Of a DNA stretch of 36,389 nt, positions 9,527 to 36,389 are shown one piece after another; the first letter of the stretch is position 1, and each line of letters opens with the position of its first letter. Origin of the DNA: a virus; IMG/VR virus record IMGVR_UViG_3300008259_000074, positions 1 to 36,389 of that record, one strand, 5' to 3'. Under the pieces are notes generated by a model. It ran no database searches. It saw nothing but the letters and a program-made list of their open reading frames with translations, and was not told where the DNA came from. The position numbers and the translations under genes were made by a program.

Positions 9527-9802
9527 TCACTCTCCGAGCAGACCGCCGCGCACGCGACGGCCGCCATACAGGCTGTAAAGGCCGCCATAAATTCTGGCGG
9601 GGTCGTACTGCGACGCGCGTCCGGCAAAGCCGCCGCGCTCAATCTTGGGGGAGAGGGAGCTGCTCAAGTCGACCTCTTCCTCTTCGGGCTTCTTCTTGAG
9701 GTTCTTGAGGACGTTCCCGAACGAGAACCCACCAACCCCGCCGCCCTTATCGCCGCCGGCCATCATGGCCTGCATGATCGCTTGCATAATCGGTTCCATC
9801 AC
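9527..9802 (-). CDS. Small hypothetical protein, Met/Gly rich
   Basis: A 91-residue ORF with a Met-rich N-terminal helix (MEPIMQAIMQAMMAGGDKGGG), a Lys/Glu-rich middle and a basic C-terminus with GGLYSLYGGRR. It overlaps the upstream S74 gene by ATGA and is one base from the next start, so it is part of the late operon. I recognise no family. Confidence 0.5.
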   Translation of the reverse strand: MMEPIMQAIMQAMMAGGDKGGGVGGFSFGNVLKNLKKKPEEEEVDLSSSLSPKIERGGFAGRASQYDPARIYGGLYSLYGGRRVRGGLLGE

Positions 9803-11547
9803 TTCTTCTCCTTGCCGACCTTGCGGTCGAGCTCCTTGATGGCCTCGGTCAAGAGGCCGATTAGCTGCGGCGCACCAACCTGCCGCATCCCATCACCGCG
9901 GCGCGAAACGGCGCTCGGCATGACCTTCTCGACATCCTGCGCCGAGACGCTCATGTCCTCCTCGCCGCCGTTGTCCTCGCCCTCCTCGGAGCCGTACCCG
10001 TCCTCCCACTCGAACTCGATGCCCTTCAGCCGGCGCACCTTGTCGAGCGGGTTCTTGATGGACTTGATGTCGCGCTTCATGTCCTCGTCGGACCCGAAAA
10101 CCTGGGTCATCATGTTCCAGTAAGACGGGCGCCCGGTGACGGTGCTGGTGCCCGTCGTATTCATCGGCGACGCCTGCACCGCCCCCTGCCTGATGGCGAG
10201 CTGCTGCAACGGGAACTGCTGCCGGCGGAAGTCCTCCTCGCGCTGCGCGTTCAAGAACTGCTGGTAGAGCTGCTGCTGCTGCGTGCCGAGGCCCATCATC
10301 GCCCTGCCCGCCCCGTACCGATTCTCCAGCGCCGTCTGGCCGTAGCCCGCCAGGTCGCGCCCGGCGCCGAGCCGGAGCTCTGCGCCCTGCACCCCGGCTG
10401 CCTGGTTCGCGCGCGCGGCGTCCATCGCGGTGCCGACGTTGAACTGCTCGGCGGCGGTCCCAAGGCGCTGCGCGTCGAGCTGCGCCCGCTGGTTCGCCTC
10501 CTCGGCAGAGAGGCCCATGCGCATATAGTCCTGCATCGCCTGCTGGTTCGCCGCCCCGGCGCGCATCCCCTGCTCGACGTTGAACTGCTCGGCGGCAGAC
10601 CCCAGTCGCTGCGCTTCCTGCATGGCCCTCTGGTTCTCGAGGTCGGCGCGCATCTGCGCGTCGACGTTCGCGGTCTCGGCCGTGAGCCCAAGCCGCGCCA
10701 GCTCCATGTCGCGCTGCTGGTTCGAGATCTGACCACGCTGGGCGAGCTCCATCACATTCTGCGCCGCGTTTTGGTTCGAGAGCCGCACCGCCTGCTCGCG
10801 GCCGACATCGGCCTCTCTCAGCGCCGCCGCCTCGCGGAAGCCCCGCGCGCGCTGCTCGGCCACAAAGCGATTGCGCTCGCGCGCGGCCTCGCCCGCGGCG
10901 ATGCCCTCCTCGATGGCGGCACGAGAGCCACCGAAGGCACGCGCCGCCGTGGCGCGAGCCGATCGCGTCCCGCGAGCCTGCTCCTCGGCGCGGCTGATGT
11001 CCTCGAGCCCCGCCTGGGTGACGGCCGCCTCGTAGGGGTTCATGTAGCGGCCGAGGTCTTGGTCCAAGAAGCCAGCCGCCTGCGCCGTGGGCGCGGCGCC
11101 AGGGGCGCCGATGTCGCGCGCGCCGAAGGTGGTCCCGACGCGGCCGGCAGAGACGCGGCTGGGGGCAAACTGCGTCCCGACCGCGCCGGCGCTGATACGC
11201 TCCGGTCCACGCGCCAAGGCGCCGCCGACATCACGCGCGCCGAACTGCGTCCCGACGGCGCCCGCCGAGATGCGCTCGGGCTGGAAGCCGAGCTCACGCT
11301 GCGCCGCGCGCGCGGCCTGCTCCACCTCGGGGACGAATCCGCCCTCCTGCGCGATACGGCGCGTCATCGCCTCGCCGGACATATAGTCCCGCGTGAAGGG
11401 CGCGACCATCATCCCACGATAGGGCTCGTAGGGGATCGCCGCGACGTCCTCGGCGAATTGAAGGTTCTGCAAGACCCGGTTATAGATCTGCGGGTCGATC
11501 TCGGTCTTCTGGACGTCCTTCTTCTTGGAACTAAAAATCTTGCTCAC
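9799..11547 (-). CDS. Repeat-rich virion protein with C-terminal S74 chaperone domain
   Basis: A 582-residue protein starting at GTG (GTGA overlap with the upstream gene). Residues ~90-150 contain near-repeats of ERISAGAVGTQFGARD. The middle (~180-420) is a long Ala/Gln/Arg-rich helical region with repeated segments of the form RLG(S/T)AAEQFNV and ANQ(Q/R)A; the matching DNA includes a 21-bp repeat (10435-10455 and 10576-10596). The C-terminal ~110 residues are an S74-type intramolecular chaperone: SDEDMKRDIKSI has Ser and Lys five apart, as in the self-cleaving dyad, followed by SAQDVEKVMPSAV and LIGLLTEAIKELD. S74 domains usually end fibres; here the body looks coiled-coil, so it may be a trimeric internal or stopper protein. 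Confidence 0.7.
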   Translation of the reverse strand: MSKIFSSKKKDVQKTEIDPQIYNRVLQNLQFAEDVAAIPYEPYRGMMVAPFTRDYMSGEAMTRRIAQEGGFVPEVEQAARAAQRELGFQPERISAGAVGTQFGARDVGGALARGPERISAGAVGTQFAPSRVSAGRVGTTFGARDIGAPGAAPTAQAAGFLDQDLGRYMNPYEAAVTQAGLEDISRAEEQARGTRSARATAARAFGGSRAAIEEGIAAGEAARERNRFVAEQRARGFREAAALREADVGREQAVRLSNQNAAQNVMELAQRGQISNQQRDMELARLGLTAETANVDAQMRADLENQRAMQEAQRLGSAAEQFNVEQGMRAGAANQQAMQDYMRMGLSAEEANQRAQLDAQRLGTAAEQFNVGTAMDAARANQAAGVQGAELRLGAGRDLAGYGQTALENRYGAGRAMMGLGTQQQQLYQQFLNAQREEDFRRQQFPLQQLAIRQGAVQASPMNTTGTSTVTGRPSYWNMMTQVFGSDEDMKRDIKSIKNPLDKVRRLKGIEFEWEDGYGSEEGEDNGGEEDMSVSAQDVEKVMPSAVSRRGDGMRQVGAPQLIGLLTEAIKELDRKVGKEKK

Positions 11548-13944: not shown

Positions 13945-15651
13945 TTATTTGCTCTCCAATGCGGCGAACTTCGCCTCAAGTTGTTCGATACGGGTCATGG
14001 CTTCTTGCAGGGCTTTAGTTAGCAGCGGAACCACATTGGCTGCGCCAACGCTTTGATACACCGGGTCGCCGTTCTCGTTTACGGCATCCTTTTCACCCGC
14101 TACAGCAATCGGCACAACTTCCTGTAATTCGTGAGCAACAAAGCCCTCTGACTCAAGCCCGTTTCGCTTCCAGTTCCATTTTACAGGCTTCAATTGCGCC
14201 AAACGATCAAGCGCGTTTTCAATCGGTTGAATGTTTTCTTTTAACCGATAATCCGACGAGGTTCCGTAAGTCGTCGTGCCGCCGCTAAAAGTGATTTCGC
14301 CTTGGCGTGTGCCATCGCCGTCGTCAAAAACCAGCGCATAGTTGGTGCCAGCGGCATTGTCTGCGCCGCATTGAATTGACATTCCATATCGGTTTGCATT
14401 GTTTCCGTCATTAACAATTCTAAAAATGTATGCGTTAGCGGAATCGCCTACAAACTCGTGATACAAACCGGATGAACTAATGTATGCGGCATTTGCTTGC
14501 GCTTTGAAATAACCGTCGCTCGTGATGCGGGCGCTTTCGGTGGCGCTAGTCTGAAAAGTAAGCACAGACCCGTTGATATTCAACTGCTGATACGAACCAG
14601 TCAGCGTTGAGTCAACACCGTGAATAGTGGATGCGCCGCTGCTGAACGTACCGCCGTTGTCAAAGCGGATGCCGTAGGTGCCGCCAGAGATACCAGCAGT
14701 GATTCCGTCACCGCTGCGAACTGCTTGGAATCTGTATGAGGGCGAACTCGTCCCGATGCCGAGGTTGCCGGAGGTGTCGAGGAACATACGCGGCGTATTG
14801 TCCGGCGAGAATCGAATTCCTCGCACGCCGGAAGTCGTACCAATAACAAGCGCGTCGCTGTAGTTGGACTCAATGTAACCGGATCGACCTGCCGCAACGT
14901 CGTCTGTAATCGTGATGCGAGTTGCTGCTGCGGTATTTGAAACGTGCAACTTGCTTGCAGGCGAACTCGTCCCGATGCCCAACCCCGTCGAGGTGAGGCG
15001 CATAAATTCGGCATCGTTATTGTCAACAAATGCCAAGCCGGGAGTGTTCATAAATTTGATGCGCTGTGGATTACTTCCAGCAACATCACGCAAATACAAA
15101 GTAGCGTTTTGACCGGCTACAGTGTTATTTACAACAAGACCATTTGCGTTTGCCGACGCAACAACCATTTGCCCACTACCTACCGTAGGGTCTGAACCGT
15201 TAACAGCGAGTTGGCTTCCATTAAATACCAGCGCACTCCCACTCGTCGCCGCCTTGCTGCCGTTCAAGTACAACACGCCGTTGGCGGTGCCGCCGTTAAG
15301 CGTGAGGTTGCCGGAGAGCGTAGCAGCCGCCGCGCTCACCGTGCCGGTGAGGGTGGGAGATCCGGCGAGCACGTTGTTGCCGGTGCCGGTGTTCGTGACC
15401 GAGACCACGTTCTTGCTGGCATCGAGCGCGAGCGCCGTCGACGCCGTGAGCGCCGACATATTCTGCGTGCCGCCGACCGTCAGCGTCTTGCCGGTGCCTA
15501 CGTTGAGGCCCACCGAGGTGCCGCTGCCTGCGCCGGTGAAGATCCCGTCGACGAGATCGAGGTTGGTGTTGATCTTGCCGCCCCAGGTGTCAGCGCTCGC
15601 GCCGACTTCCGGCTTGGTGAGGCCCAGGTTGGTGGTTGTCGTATCAGCCAT
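13945..15651 (-). CDS. Tail fibre with C-terminal S74 intramolecular chaperone
   Basis: A 568-residue fibre. The N-terminus ([20 protein letters not shown]) is a typical virion-attachment segment. The shaft has repeated beta elements, including two copies of the block LGIGTSSP (near residues 223 and 297). The last ~110 residues form an S74 peptidase/chaperone domain: [18 protein letters not shown] with the Ser-Lys dyad (S and K five apart), [12 protein letters not shown] and [11 protein letters not shown]. This domain trimerises the fibre and is then cleaved off. DNA for the shaft and chaperone (about 13970-15200) is clearly less GC-rich than the N-terminus, suggesting exchange of the receptor-binding part. 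Confidence 0.88.
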
Positions 15652-18541: not shown

Positions 18542-19522
18542 TCAGGTCGTGGTGAGGTCGGCGGCGAGGCCGTGCGCGGCCTCGGTGTTGACCTTCAACC
18601 CGTACTCCACGGTGATCAAGCGCTTCTCGGCGTCGCCGGTCTTGGCGAGCTCCACCGTCTGGAACGGACGGAGGAAGGCAACGCTCGCGTACTCGGGGTC
18701 GAGCACGAAGGCATCACGCTCACGCTGGAAGCGGTTGGGGACGACCGAGACCGAACCGAAGTCCGAGACGTAGACGTCCGCGGCGCCGATGATGGTCGCC
18801 TGACGGTTGCCCGTGACCTCGCGGCGAATCTCCGCGATGCCGGCAAACTCAGACACGCGGGCCTTGTTCACCGGGCCAACCATCAACAGCTTCGGCGAGC
18901 CACCAGAGGCCCAGACCTTCTGGATGACCGTCTTGAGGATGGCCTCCGTGAAGGTGCGCAGGTTCGCCGCGGTGGCGTCCGTGCGGGTCGCGTTCGGCGA
19001 GCTCGTGTAGACCGGATCAGCGCCGCCCGTGCCCTTGTCGGTGTTGGTCTTGAGGAAGGCCAGCAGCGAGCCCGTCTTGCGCAGCGCGGTCGAAACACCA
19101 GCCGAACCAGCCGAGGCGGCCTGGTTGGTGAGCATGGTGCTCTCCATGTCGCGCTTGATCTCAGCCGAGCGCTTGGCGAGCTGGTACGCCAGCTCCGAGC
19201 GACGGCCGGCCTTGTCGACGGCCTCGAGCGTGCCCGAGATCAGCACGGTCTTGTTGCTGATCTGCGTGTAGTTGCCCACGCGGGTCGTGGCGGAGGTTGA
19301 GTCGAACGACGAAACGTCGTCGCCTTCCACCTGCGCGTTGGTCGTGGAGGCCGCGGCGAGCGAGTCCGTCTGCCACTCGAAGTAAGTGTTCTTGACGTTC
19401 TCGCGGCCGATGTTCGACATGAACGGGGTCTCTTCCGGCGAGATGTTATAGATAACATTCGAGAGAGACTCACGGATGCCCTTTGCGGCAAACGTATCGA
19501 AAGTATTTGCAGTCTGTGACAT
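18542..19522 (-). CDS. Major capsid protein, SU10/DUF5309 type
   Basis: A 326-residue HK97-fold capsid protein of the SU10-like group. Supporting segments are the N-terminus FDTFAAKGIRESLSNVIYNISPEETPFMSNIG, here given as its two halves FDTFAAKGIRES and ISPEETPFMSNIG, then YFEWQTDSLAAA, GNYTQISNKT and the C-terminal DPEYASVAFLRPFQT. It follows the scaffold gene by 12 bases and has a strong hairpin downstream, consistent with high expression. Confidence 0.85.
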   Translation of the reverse strand: MSQTANTFDTFAAKGIRESLSNVIYNISPEETPFMSNIGRENVKNTYFEWQTDSLAAASTTNAQVEGDDVSSFDSTSATTRVGNYTQISNKTVLISGTLEAVDKAGRRSELAYQLAKRSAEIKRDMESTMLTNQAASAGSAGVSTALRKTGSLLAFLKTNTDKGTGGADPVYTSSPNATRTDATAANLRTFTEAILKTVIQKVWASGGSPKLLMVGPVNKARVSEFAGIAEIRREVTGNRQATIIGAADVYVSDFGSVSVVPNRFQRERDAFVLDPEYASVAFLRPFQTVELAKTGDAEKRLITVEYGLKVNTEAAHGLAADLTTT

Positions 19523-31703: not shown

Positions 31704-31981
31704 TTGGGTTTGTAGTCGTGGATGCCGTTGCGCTTCGGAGGGTCGTCGTACTTCCGCTCCTCGGCCTCGGCCTTAGCCGCCTCGGTGGTCTCGAAGACCC
31801 CGAGCCACTTCGGGATGACCCTGCCATCCGCCCCGTGAGCCCAGAGCACATGGCGCACCTTCCCGTCCACCTTAGACGACATCACAGCAAACCGACCGCA
31901 CCCGGTCAGCAGCCCCCACTTGTCGTCCTCCTGCCACTCAAGCGGCCCCAATTTGTCAAACCGGATGATGCCCTGGCTCAT
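31688..31981 (-). CDS. Hypothetical protein
   Basis: A 97-residue protein started at ATG 31981 because of the ATGA overlap with the upstream stop. It has beta-type segments (KWGLLTGCGRFAVMSS, VRHVLWAHGADGRVIP), a helix WLGVFETTEAAKAEAEERK and a basic C-terminus. The compact alpha/beta composition suggests a small folded domain. No family recognised. Confidence 0.5.
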   Translation of the reverse strand: MSQGIIRFDKLGPLEWQEDDKWGLLTGCGRFAVMSSKVDGKVRHVLWAHGADGRVIPKWLGVFETTEAAKAEAEERKYDDPPKRNGIHDYKPKWPKK

Positions 31982-32181
31982 TGCGCCCACCCCGGCCGCT
32001 TGCCGACCTCGCCTTGGCTGTCCTCGTAATGGACGACCTTGGCGTTGAACATCGACTGGAGCGCCTTGGCGATTTGAAACCCCTCCTCGCCGAGTCCAGC
32101 GACCATTCGCTTGGCTAGTGGTTTTTCTGCAACATGTTGCTCCAACGCAACAGGACGCGACGGGCTTGTCTTGTATCTCAT
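31978..32181 (-). CDS. Small hypothetical protein
   Basis: A 67-residue protein starting at ATG 32181, chosen for the strong GGAGGA ribosome site five bases upstream; the longer in-frame start at 32217 has none. Sequence includes LAKRMVAGLGEEGFQIAKAL. It is the first gene after the TGTCCG motif array and so heads the terS-containing leftward unit. Function unknown. Confidence 0.5.
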   Translation of the reverse strand: MRYKTSPSRPVALEQHVAEKPLAKRMVAGLGEEGFQIAKALQSMFNAKVVHYEDSQGEVGKRPGWAQ

Positions 32182-32202
32182 GATTCCTCCATTCCTAAAC
32201 CA

Positions 32203-32316
32203 ATGTCCGAAGGTCATGTCCGAATGTCCGTGTCCTTAAGGACACTCGGACATTTTCGGACATAAATGACCCGCCGAATATGTCCGAACCGGACATTTTC
32301 GGACATTTTCGGACAT
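32203..32316. promoter_or_regulatory. TGTCCG/CGGACA motif array with central palindrome
   Basis: About nine copies of ATGTCCG(AA) or its complement lie in 114 bases. Forward copies start at 32203, 32216, 32224 and 32280; reverse copies end at 32253, 32263, 32296, 32306 and 32316. The last three are spaced exactly 10 bp. A perfect 16-bp palindrome, GTGTCCTTAAGGACAC (32230-32245), sits in the centre, flanked by opposed copies. The array lies between the prim-pol/helicase stop and the next gene. It fits an iteron-type origin or a multi-site operator. Confidence 0.85.
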
Positions 32317-34364
32317 CACACCTCTGCAAGCGAAGACCCCCCTACCGTGGCCTTCAGAAAGGGCGACATGATCAGCTTTTCGACCGCATCGTGGACAGAC
32401 TGCCTCGCCACCCCGCACTCCCGGCCGACCGCGCGCAGCTCCTCGATGGTCCACACCAGCGGCGTCTCTGACCTCTTCTGGCGCTCCCGCAGGGCCAGCA
32501 GGATCGTCCGCTGCGCCTTCCCTTGGGGCGAGTGAGCCACGGCCGGCTTACTCGGCGCGCTCGTCTCCTTCATCACCAGCGACTTGACCTCCTCGCCATA
32601 CTTGTCGATGCGCCCGAGCTGGACCTCCACCGCCTCGTACCCAAGCGGGGACAGACTGGCCGTATCCTTAAACCGCTCTCGGCTCACCGCCACCGCCATG
32701 GCCTGAGCGTCCGGCCGCTCGACGATGTACTCGGCGTCGGGGTTGGCCATGAGCGCGGACGCGCCCCGTGGCCGCTTGCTGTCCCCGTGGCCCGAGTGCG
32801 CCACGAGCAATACCGTGGCCGTGTATCGCTCACGCAGCCCGATGGTGAGCTTCGAGAGGTACTCGGCCACCTCCTGGTTGCTGTTCTCGTCGAGCCCGGC
32901 GCTGAACTTGCTGAAGGTATCGACCACGATGAGCGCCGGCCGCACCTGCGCCTGGTCGATGGCCTGCTGGAGCGCCTCCATCTCGGACTCGGCGTTAAGG
33001 TTAGCGACGGACTCAAGCGCGAGCATCTGAATATCGCTCAGGCCGCGGCCCTTGCCGTGCTCTTGCACCCATGCCTCGGCGCGCCTGCCGAGCCCGGCGC
33101 CCTCGCCGGAGAGAATCACGACGGGGTTCCCGGCCGAGGCTATGCGCATGGCCCAGTCGAGCGCGATGAACGACTTAAACGACGCGCGCGGCCCGGCGAG
33201 CACCGCCAGCACGTTGGCCTCGATGACGTTGTGGATGAGCCATGTCGCCTCGCGCCGCTCCGCGACGATATCGCCGATGGCGCGCAGCGTGAGCCGCCGC
33301 CCGGGCGTGGCGGTTGCGCCGATCGACAGGAGGGTCGGCTCCGGCTCCCGCGCGCGCTCCATGCCACGCGCCTCTGGCACGTCGCTGTAATCGGTCTCCG
33401 GCTCATCCCTGACCGGCGGCCCGATGCGCACCGCCTCTGGCACCGGCACCCAGCCGCCCGCCTTGGCGGCGCTGAAGAGGCTCCCGAGCGTGACCCCCTT
33501 GCCGCGGTCCAGGTGGAACGACTGCCACCGATACTCCATGTCAGCGCGCCCTGCATACGACGCCGGAAGCACGCCGGTGATGCCGCCGCTCGACCACGCA
33601 TCCCAGAGCTCGAGGCCGTCGTCTGCGCCGCCCGATGCGTGATGCAGCGCCATGCCGCACATCAACCAGGCGTCGTAACCCTCCGGGTCGATGTGCGCGA
33701 TCGCCTCAGTAACTCGCGGCAGGTCGCGCTGGAAGTCTTGAGAGGTCCCGGGCTTAGGCGGCAGCTTGGCCGCGACCTCGGCGGGCAGCTCGAGGTCCAT
33801 GCGGCGCTCGTCGATGAGCCCCGCTGGCAGCGGCTGCGCTTCCTCCATGGGGCCGCTCTGGCCGTAGTGCAGGGGCCACCATATGACATAGCCGCCCTCT
33901 GCGCGTATGTCGAGCCCCTCGCGCTTGACCTTGCCCAAGACGACGGACGCGCCGCCCCGTATCTTGACCCCAGCGGGTGCCTTGAATAGGTAATGCCTGC
34001 CACCAGAGCCGCCGCCGGTCGCGTGGACTCTGGTCTTGGTGAGCTCAAACTGGTGCTCGCTGATCCAGTCCTGCGCCGCGCTCGACGCGCTCCGGTGGTC
34101 GTAGTCGATGACCACCAGCCCGGTGATGGAGCCGGTCGGCACCCCGACCAGCGCCTCCGGGTTCGCCGACCACCAGCGCCGGATCTGCTGCTCGTCCTGG
34201 GTGGCGTCCTTGAAGCCGTTGCGGGTGAGTGGCGACTTTGCCTTTAAGGTGCGACCTTCTTGGTCGGTCTGGTCCGCCCTGCGGCACGGAAACACCGGCG
34301 CGCGCTTGGAGAGCTCGAGGACGCGCTCGACGGAGACGATGGCGGTGAGGTCTGGCTTGCTCAT
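32316..34364 (-). CDS. Primase-polymerase/PriCT/AAA helicase fusion (replication protein)
   Basis: A 682-residue replication protein. Residues 1-200 are a bifunctional prim-pol domain: the metal-binding Asp pair in VVIDYDHR (87 and 89) and the SGGRHYLF motif (His124). Residues ~210-305 resemble PriCT-2 (EGYDAWLMCGMALHHASGG; WQSFHLDRGKG). Residues ~355-590 are an RepA/AAA_25-type helicase: Walker A GPRASFKS (391-398), Walker B LIVVDTFSKF (478-487) and LLVAHSGHGD. The C-terminal part includes a possible winged helix (LVWTIEELRAVGRECG). It should prime and unwind phage DNA, with host polymerase elongating. It overlaps the HTH gene by ATGA; the motif array begins at its stop codon. Confidence 0.87.
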   Translation of the reverse strand: MSKPDLTAIVSVERVLELSKRAPVFPCRRADQTDQEGRTLKAKSPLTRNGFKDATQDEQQIRRWWSANPEALVGVPTGSITGLVVIDYDHRSASSAAQDWISEHQFELTKTRVHATGGGSGGRHYLFKAPAGVKIRGGASVVLGKVKREGLDIRAEGGYVIWWPLHYGQSGPMEEAQPLPAGLIDERRMDLELPAEVAAKLPPKPGTSQDFQRDLPRVTEAIAHIDPEGYDAWLMCGMALHHASGGADDGLELWDAWSSGGITGVLPASYAGRADMEYRWQSFHLDRGKGVTLGSLFSAAKAGGWVPVPEAVRIGPPVRDEPETDYSDVPEARGMERAREPEPTLLSIGATATPGRRLTLRAIGDIVAERREATWLIHNVIEANVLAVLAGPRASFKSFIALDWAMRIASAGNPVVILSGEGAGLGRRAEAWVQEHGKGRGLSDIQMLALESVANLNAESEMEALQQAIDQAQVRPALIVVDTFSKFSAGLDENSNQEVAEYLSKLTIGLRERYTATVLLVAHSGHGDSKRPRGASALMANPDAEYIVERPDAQAMAVAVSRERFKDTASLSPLGYEAVEVQLGRIDKYGEEVKSLVMKETSAPSKPAVAHSPQGKAQRTILLALRERQKRSETPLVWTIEELRAVGRECGVARQSVHDAVEKLIMSPFLKATVGGSSLAEV

Positions 34365-34576
34365 GGGTAGATATCCGGCCGGAGAGCCTTCCTAGATACC
34401 CCAGAGGCCGCCTCAACCGCAAGCACGCGCAGCACCGGCACGCGCCCTGCGTTCATCCATTGGTGGACCGCCTGCGGCTTCACCTTGAGTTTACGGGCCA
34501 GCGCCGTCTGTCCGCCCGCTTGGGCGACGGCGTGGAGGAGTGCCGCTGTCTGCGGCTGTACTTTTGCGGTAGGCAT
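34361..34576 (-). CDS. Cro/YdaS-like HTH regulator
   Basis: A 71-residue helix-turn-helix protein. AVAQAGGQTALARKLKVKPQ, then AVHQWMNAGRVP, is the YdaS/Cro-type HTH; the tail RVLAVEAASGVSRKALRPDIYP is typical of that group. It is divergent from the rightward early operon and translationally coupled to the replication gene, so it likely controls the region 34577-34727 and its own operon. With no integrase in the window, it may time early gene expression rather than maintain lysogeny. Confidence 0.75.
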   Translation of the reverse strand: MPTAKVQPQTAALLHAVAQAGGQTALARKLKVKPQAVHQWMNAGRVPVLRVLAVEAASGVSRKALRPDIYP

Positions 34577-35641: not shown

Positions 35642-36057
35642 CTTTGCATACGCACGCCGGTTCCCTGCCGACGCACAAATATGTGTGGATTGAACCGCGC
35701 GCGATTGGCGACCACGGCTGGCTGCGCGCGGTCTGGTTCGGTCTCGCGTCGTTTCCCGGCCGCGCCTGGGGGTGCCATGTGATGCTCGAGTCTGGCGCCG
35801 TCTACCGCAACGTGCCGCTGCACCAGCTCGCGTCGCATAACGATGTCGACGAGCCGTGGACGCCGGCGCAGGCCCAGACCGCAGCCCCAGAGCAGAGCAA
35901 AGAGTTTTACTTTATTCAGCTCGAGAACGGCCGCTTTACGGCGCAGCCGACGAACCATGTGCTCGTCGAGGATCGCTCGTTCACGCGCAAGGAGATGGGG
36001 TGGCCCGACTTCTTGCGCCGCCAGGAAGATTGGTACAGCGCGGAGGATGGGGCATGA
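35638..36057 (+). CDS. Conserved phage protein, short allele with 47-codon deletion
   Basis: A 139-residue protein starting at TTG, which overlaps the previous stop. This is the full 5' version of the gene cut at the left window end: KYVWIEPRAIGDHGWLRAVW, then WGCHVMLESGAVYRNVPLHQ. At PAQAQT it jumps directly to AAPEQSKEFYFIQLENGRF, lacking 47 residues present in the left copy. Downstream differences are largely silent. The deletion removes a Cys/aromatic-rich segment, so this allele may be altered or inactive. It overlaps the methyltransferase start by ATGA. Confidence 0.65.
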   Translation: MTLHTHAGSLPTHKYVWIEPRAIGDHGWLRAVWFGLASFPGRAWGCHVMLESGAVYRNVPLHQLASHNDVDEPWTPAQAQTAAPEQSKEFYFIQLENGRFTAQPTNHVLVEDRSFTRKEMGWPDFLRRQEDWYSAEDGA

Positions 36058-36389
36058 AGTACCTCTCCGTCTGCTCTGGCATCGAAGCCGCGACCGTCGC
36101 GTGGCACCACATGGGATGGCAGCCCGTTGCGTTTAGCGAGATCGAGAAGTTCCCGAGCGCGGTGCTCGCGCATCACTACCCCGATGTCCCGAATGTCGGC
36201 GACATGACTAAATTCAAGGAGTGGAATCTTGAACCAATTGACCTTCTTGTCGGAGGAACCCCCTGCCAAAGTTTCTCAATCGCGGGCCTCCGCAAAGGGC
36301 TCGATGACCCCAGAGGCAACCTTATGCTTACATTTCTTGCAATCGCTGAACGTGAGAGACCTAAATGGATTGTCTGGGAAAACGTCCCC
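35808..36389. repeat. Right copy of imperfect terminal repeat
   Basis: Matches 1-723 in the same orientation but lacks 141 bases after position 35880. The segment around 36200-36240 and the last ~110 bases are identical to the left copy, while the middle carries many mostly silent changes. Confidence 0.85.
36054..36389 (+). CDS. DNA (cytosine-5) methyltransferase, second allele (5' part)
   Basis: The first 112 codons of a cytosine methyltransferase, cut by the window end. Motif I SVCSGIEAATVAW, motif IV GGTPCQSFSIAG and WENVP are intact. It differs from the left copy at about ten residues, for example HHMGWQ for HDLGWT and PIDLL for PINLL; the Asp form is the more usual one in this family. 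Whether this allele carries the HNH insertion cannot be seen. Confidence 0.85.
   Translation, partial: MKYLSVCSGIEAATVAWHHMGWQPVAFSEIEKFPSAVLAHHYPDVPNVGDMTKFKEWNLEPIDLLVGGTPCQSFSIAGLRKGLDDPRGNLMLTFLAIAERERPKWIVWENVP

Follow-up and report, generated by a model that had tools for sequence, protein, structure and literature searches.

What purpose is served by a dense cluster of short repeats that starts exactly where a phage replication gene stops? The window considered here, i.e. the whole 36,389-bp stretch of viral DNA that was analysed, contains a single cluster of this kind. A sequence-only reading had described it as about nine copies of one motif in both orientations among which lies a 16-bp perfect palindrome, with 10-bp spacing at one end and a prim-pol/helicase gene next to it, and had regarded it either as an iteron origin or as a cooperative operator. 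The description was accurate in each of these points, and the elements on which the argument relies are the following:

32203..32316, no strand assigned: iteron array with nine exact ATGTCCG/CGGACAT heptamers in 114 bp, the layout being kept in relatives.
32212..32271, minus strand: main hairpin, with an outer 4-bp stem GGTC/GACC, two iteron stems, an apical stem and a T/A-rich loop.
32230..32245, no strand assigned: 16-bp perfect palindrome GTGTCCTTAAGGACAC, apical stem and loop of the hairpin, self-complementary in relatives with other sequences.
32280..32296, minus strand: smaller hairpin made of two iterons (ATGTCCG GTT CGGACAT), predicted to form the second arm of a three-way junction.
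32316..34364, minus strand: gene of the replication protein (682 aa) with Prim-Pol, PriCT_2, AAA_25 and a C-terminal winged helix.
32319..32522, minus strand: region coding for the C-terminal winged helix (aa 615-682), the type of which matches the array type.
32370..32405, minus strand: predicted recognition helix H3 (aa 654-665, RQSVHDAVEKLI), with columns 654, 655, 659 and 663 being highly type-informative.
31978..32181, minus strand: small gene d1 (67 aa), its ATG preceded by GGAGGA.

Four heptamers lie in plus orientation (32203, 32216, 32224, 32280) and five in minus orientation (32247, 32257, 32290, 32300, 32310), with 10-bp steps at 32290/32300/32310 and additionally at 32247/32257. 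Read on the minus strand, on which the replication gene is also encoded, the array begins on the last base of the stop codon of that gene and proceeds with three direct copies at 10-bp steps, one inverted copy, two direct copies, the self-complementary core, two inverted copies, GACC and one further inverted copy. Of the 15 heptamer copies in the window, six are isolated, and in 200 simulated first-order Markov genomes no 114-bp segment held more than two, as compared to the nine observed. No other heptamer in the entire window is as clustered as ATGTCCG, while TGTCCG is in total not over-represented (23 observed, 26.5 expected); the signal is the clustering, not the total number. The AT content is about 51% over the array versus about 35% around it, with no clear melting region and no adjoining AT-rich block.

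Scanning viral contigs with the protein yielded 80 relatives, with 72-100% identity in the best segment of each. From a scan with one repeat pair, 77 stretches were obtained, which mostly belong to the same phage group, and two scans with the C-terminal domain added further relatives. It had been proposed to look for the array in close relatives, and indeed, wherever the contig of a relative extends beyond the gene, an array with the same arrangement is located behind the stop codon, with a repeat unit that differs by type. At least five types can be distinguished, namely type A with TGTCCGAAA, which is the type of the window, type B with GGTACGAAA (e.g. L007), type C with GGTCAAAAA, type D with TGTTGGAAA (L055) and type E with TGTYCGGA (L060 and its close kin), and their alignment reveals a common K-G-T...A skeleton. 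Types D and E are single lineages each, and part of the type-A sample was found through its own repeat, i.e. by the repeat-pair scan. In 12 near-complete genomes of about 33-37 kb, the pattern of the own type is found at one place only and the patterns of the other types are absent; there is one array per genome, and the repeat types are mutually exclusive. The proposed count of copies elsewhere in the genome likewise gave only the isolated ones, with one array per genome of about 36 kb. No sixth type was present among the arrays inspected from the two C-terminal profile scans, and a scan for the type-D repeat gave a double match in one contig only, the known one. Among phage records, no cultured relative exceeds 60% identity, the best matches covering 59% at 31%; nucleotide matches outside the methyltransferase gene are all under 80 bp, and a scan of genome contigs for named hosts gave one partial match (L222), which is probably irrelevant.

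Which part of which protein follows these types? For 66 non-redundant replication proteins, we determined by protein position whether the nearest neighbour is of the same repeat type, together with the ratio of distances between and within types. For aa 1-300 the same-type score is about 0.5, for aa 626-682 it reaches 1.00, and along the protein the distance ratio climbs from 1.0 to 3.5 (aa 626-682). The N-terminal half shows no relation to repeat type, to which the C-terminal ~60 residues are perfectly matched. On trees, the fewest type changes are 23 for aa 1-300, 9 for aa 301-590 and 4 for aa 601-682, the latter being the minimum possible for five types. The most type-informative columns include 641, 652, 654, 655, 659, 663 and 677, of which those from 654 to 663 belong to the predicted recognition helix and 677 to the predicted wing. 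The consensus helix is GV[SAP]RQSVHDAVEKL in type A, AMSKTTAHAAAEAL in type B, GQSKQSVHKAVEAM in type C, GLNRHSVHDAVEKL in type D and GLPRSSVHEAVEKL in type E, and wing residue 677 is S in types A, D and E, Y in type B and F in type C.

According to Pfam, the replication protein combines a Prim-Pol domain of the archaeo-eukaryotic type (aa 22-167) with PriCT_2 (219-300) and the RecA/RepA-like ATPase domain AAA_25 (356-528); a PDB sequence search with this protein gave no relative. An AlphaFold2 model of the C-terminal 112 residues (pLDDT 79.7) has helices at model positions 46-61, 70-79 and 84-95, the last of which corresponds to aa 654-665, and strands at 100-103 and 106-109, and the domain is predicted to be a winged helix of the H-H-H-wing kind. 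In structural alignments of this model, winged-helix domains came out on top, the best being that of MCM8 (Z 8.9, rmsd 2.3 Å, 67 residues), with SelB, MukF, ORC2, GntR and CRP-type domains among the other top matches. Foldseek E-values were weak (best 0.027), which is expected for a winged helix of 65 residues, and the DNA-binding domain of P4 alpha was absent from the fold-match list, which is uninformative either way. The full-length AlphaFold model was poor (pLDDT 53) and was set aside except for its C-terminal domain, which agrees with the separate model.

Part of the association between repeat type and winged helix is linkage, as the array abuts the winged-helix code. The gene d1, just past the opposite end of the array, offers a stretch of similar size as linkage control, and it shows the association to a far lesser degree: in trees with matched rows, the winged helix (43 residues) requires 4 changes and d1 (43 residues) 14, with 15 for d2 and 21 for the HTH gene. 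An explanation of the match by linkage alone is therefore rejected. Neither the HTH protein (34361-34576) nor the Zn-ribbon protein, both of which the sequence-only reading had considered as binders, tracks the repeat type (same-type nearest-neighbour scores 0.57 and 0.58, versus 1.00 for the C-terminus of the replication protein). The terminase subunits do not track it either (small 0.57, large 0.43), and none of these proteins or of d1-d4 follows the repeat type like the winged helix does, for which reason they were all rejected. Pairwise comparisons delimit the region that switches. L052 (type A) and L060 (type E) are 90-100% identical on both sides and 79-87% identical over ~400 bp of winged helix and array; the window (type A) and L007 (type B) are 40-61% identical at winged helix and array, versus 86-100% over most of the remaining protein gene and 89-99% downstream. 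In L042 and L052, winged helix and array are nearly identical, and the downstream flanks are much more diverged.

The center of the array can be folded into a hairpin, and in comparison to shuffled sequences, folding is strong on both strands, with z-scores of -8.4 and -9.7 as DNA and of -7.2 (gene strand) and -8.9 as RNA. Such z-scores alone prove little, since palindromic arrays and opposed repeats fold well by nature. More informative is the variation of the stems, as the apical stem occurs as TGTCC/GGACA, AGTCC/GGACT, AGACC/GGTCT or GTGC/GCAC, the outer stem as GGTC/GACC, AGTC/GACT or GAAC/GTTT, and a type-C stem as CCAT/ATGG, CTAT/ATAG or TTAT/ATAA. In types A, D and E, 10 of 24 pairs are changed on both sides, versus 2.7 in shuffles (none of 500 shuffles reached 10), and in type C 6 of 22, versus 3.2 (4 of 500 reached 6), with slid controls giving at most 3 and 4, respectively. 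The hairpin is kept by compensatory changes, and this includes stems that are not formed by repeats. Bulges in the main hairpin are almost confined to the minus-strand 5' arm and include a 2-nt AG beside the apical stem, and a 2-nt excess at this position (AG, AA, TG or TC) recurs in types A, B, C and E, being less clear in D. A transcription terminator was rejected, as no T-run follows the hairpin in most type-A and type-B arrays and the type-B arrays are coding, and so was a known RNA family, as an Rfam search gave only three chance matches, all far below the gathering scores.

We consider it probable that the array is a replication origin that is read by the winged helix of its own replication protein, and that winged helix and array together constitute a specificity cassette. 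Of the two functions originally considered, the iteron origin is therewith well supported, with the replication protein as the likely binder, and the cooperative operator of HTH or Zn-ribbon proteins is not. The array with its conservation, the type switching, the winged-helix match and the hairpin covariation can be read directly from the DNA, and on this basis we strongly infer that the C-terminal winged helix binds the iterons, the bound units being ~9 bp in length. What may follow is a matter of reasoning from sequence: the opposed iteron clusters would bring several Prim-Pol/PriCT-2/RepA-like-ATPase protein molecules together around the self-complementary core, this core would be extruded or melted as a hairpin in the cell, the ATPase domain would be loaded as helicase, and the Prim-Pol domain would lay the first primers on the exposed strand, so that replication would start at the array. 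Winged-helix code and array, ~0.4-0.6 kb in total, could be exchanged or co-evolve as a unit, and this would account for the five or more putative origin types that exclude each other among phages which are otherwise closely alike. In 6 of 10 genomes the cumulative GC skew, which had been suggested as a further check, reaches its minimum no more than ~2 kb from the array; this is a weak, suggestive point for an origin and is confounded by gene direction, as the minimum coincides with the switch of gene direction upstream of the replication gene.

Could the replication protein bind the array for regulatory purposes only, as an autoregulator or as a controller of the genes from d1 to terminase, with no origin being involved? 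The array does lie upstream of d1 with its ribosome site, and the match of winged helix and repeat type fits an operator equally well. We nevertheless regard this as rather unlikely, because the array is positioned 3' of the protein's own gene and away from its promoter, because in type-B phages it is located within the d1 reading frame (MRQNKVRKVRKVR...), because an operator would not need a covarying hairpin, and because the cellular precedent with such a protein layout is an origin (PMC4234260). A cooperative site for the YdaS/Cro-like HTH protein or the NrdR-like Zn-ribbon protein is scarcely conceivable in view of the above-described lack of tracking and, for the HTH gene, of the 21 versus 4 label changes on the trees, even though the HTH gene adjoins the prim-pol gene upstream.

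It is very unlikely that the function belongs to an RNA structure between the two genes, i.e. a 3' UTR or leader with the repeats as no more than its stems. Strong folding on the gene strand, compensatory changes and bulges mainly on one strand would all be compatible with it, but no RNA family matches, the repeat type follows a predicted DNA-recognition helix of a replication initiator, direct tandem repeats occur at ~10-bp steps (9 in type B), and conservation extends to single repeats that lack a stable partner. Moreover, the type-B array is coding in d1, which argues against an untranslated-RNA role. A packaging (cos/pac) or recombination site appears highly improbable. The small terminase gene is found 1.5 kb downstream, and similar triple repeats adjoin an integrase gene in an unrelated prophage, but neither terminase subunit follows the repeat type, and no integrase gene was found next to the array.

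If the array is an origin, how does it compare to known ones? The origin repeats of P4 have a different sequence, and there is a second site, crr. P4 alpha unites primase and helicase with a winged helix at its C-terminus, by which the short origin repeats are bound (PMC4234260). A predicted C-terminal winged helix in a primase-helicase and short repeats are found here too, and the repeat type matches the winged-helix type; in contrast to the bacterial TOPRIM primase of P4 alpha, there is a Prim-Pol domain with a RepA-like ATPase, and there is one array with a hairpin core. In the plasmid pRN1, the origin is located just 3' of the Prim-Pol/helicase/winged-helix gene and is genetically required, and the same has been proposed for phage BIP-1; in pRN1 (ORF904) and BIP-1/BPP-1, a stem-loop of ~100 nt directly follows the gene, with conserved structure and non-conserved sequence (PMC4234260). 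The domain order with a C-terminal winged helix and a stem-loop of ~100 nt directly 3' of the replication gene, kept in structure without sequence, recur here. However, the helicase of the pRN1/BPP-1 systems is of the SF3 kind, iterons are lacking there, and the motifs that are recognised were "not yet identified" (PMC4234260), whereas the present system has AAA_25 (RecA/RepA-like) and clear iterons that are matched to the recognition helix. The sequence that is read by the winged helix in Prim-Pol replicons of the pRN1/BPP-1 kind was previously unknown. The present system is best read as a hybrid of the P4 and pRN1/BPP-1 designs, a putative iteron-plus-hairpin origin in which P4-like iterons and a pRN1-like structured origin behind the gene would be joined with a RepA-type ATPase, a primase and an initiator in one chain.

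The definition of PrimQH (PrimPol-PV1) comprises an AEP domain, PriCT-1/2, one of several P-loop ATPases including RepA, and a winged helix at the C-terminus (PMC5862659). The domain architecture is the same here, and the likeness is one of architecture alone; PrimQH is known only as such an architecture, whereas here the winged helix is paired with its putative target, and origin recognition by the winged helix of such primases had previously been just a suggestion. At RSF1010 oriV, an iteron-binding initiator (RepC), a RepA-type helicase (RepA) and a primase acting at the hairpins ssiA/ssiB (RepB') cooperate (PMC4234260). These are three separate proteins, in contrast to the one fused protein and one compact array described here. 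Lambdoid phages exhibit O-ori type specificity, which is the nearest parallel to the exchange of winged-helix/array pairs. In lambda, the iterons lie inside O and are followed by an AT-rich stretch (PMC4488673, PMC7466680). An initiator gene with iterons beside or inside it is thus common to both, but here short iterons and a hairpin follow the gene, the array starting at the stop codon. In the literature on the compared replicons, we found no description of a repeated exchange of matched winged-helix/array pairs within one phage group.

It is a tentative suggestion, and one that we consider rather doubtful, that the five array/winged-helix pairs are replication-specificity types that are kept diverse by selection, with a readable code of residues and bases. 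Selection might act through escape from origin decoys, satellites or interference among co-infecting relatives, and this is plausible because extra copies of its own origin stop lambda replication (PMC4488673). If true, the type diversity would be the replicative counterpart of heteroimmunity in a widespread group of uncultured phages, and mutual exclusion of the types in the cell, if it occurs, would mean that phages diversify origins in the same manner as repressors. With dozens of natural recognition-helix/repeat pairs, target, protein-DNA code and the role of the hairpin are testable together.

Several minor observations concern the neighborhood and the rest of the genome. The d1 frame can be extended upstream to an ATG within the iteron at 32217 (32181-32217), with a good ribosome site at the 32181 start, and in type-B relatives (L007, 7059-7360) the 9-bp repeat spacing reads as Val-Arg-Lys codons (VRKVRKVR) in the d1 frame. 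The YdaS/Cro-like HTH gene at 34361-34576 overlaps the start of the replication gene, and its alleles (54-99% identity among relatives) are shuffled independently of this adjoining gene. Clustered TGTCCG/CGGACA motifs occur inside an unidentified gene in the unrelated phages L135 (3150-3330), L138 (~5314) and L137 (~2957); in L135, this gene is followed by one for a DnaB-type helicase, and the cluster resembles an origin inside a gene in which this hexamer has come into use independently. In L150 (632-670; near-identical in L099, L109, L116 and L131), three TGTCCGAAA-like repeats adjoin the genes of an excisionase and of a tyrosine integrase that has a lambda-type arm-binding domain, and are probably integrase arm sites, i.e. 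a second convergent use of such a repeat. The window ends (1-723 and 35808-36389) overlap, with 73 bp identical and then 90.5% identity over 514 bp, so that the genome is probably complete and circularly permuted with ~35.8 kb, and the start of a cytosine-5 DNA methyltransferase gene is present at both ends, with a different allele at each. An SU10-type capsid protein is encoded at 18542-19522, and two large proteins (9799-11547 and 13945-15651), each ending in a Peptidase_S74 (endosialidase chaperone) domain, are probably tail fibres or spikes.
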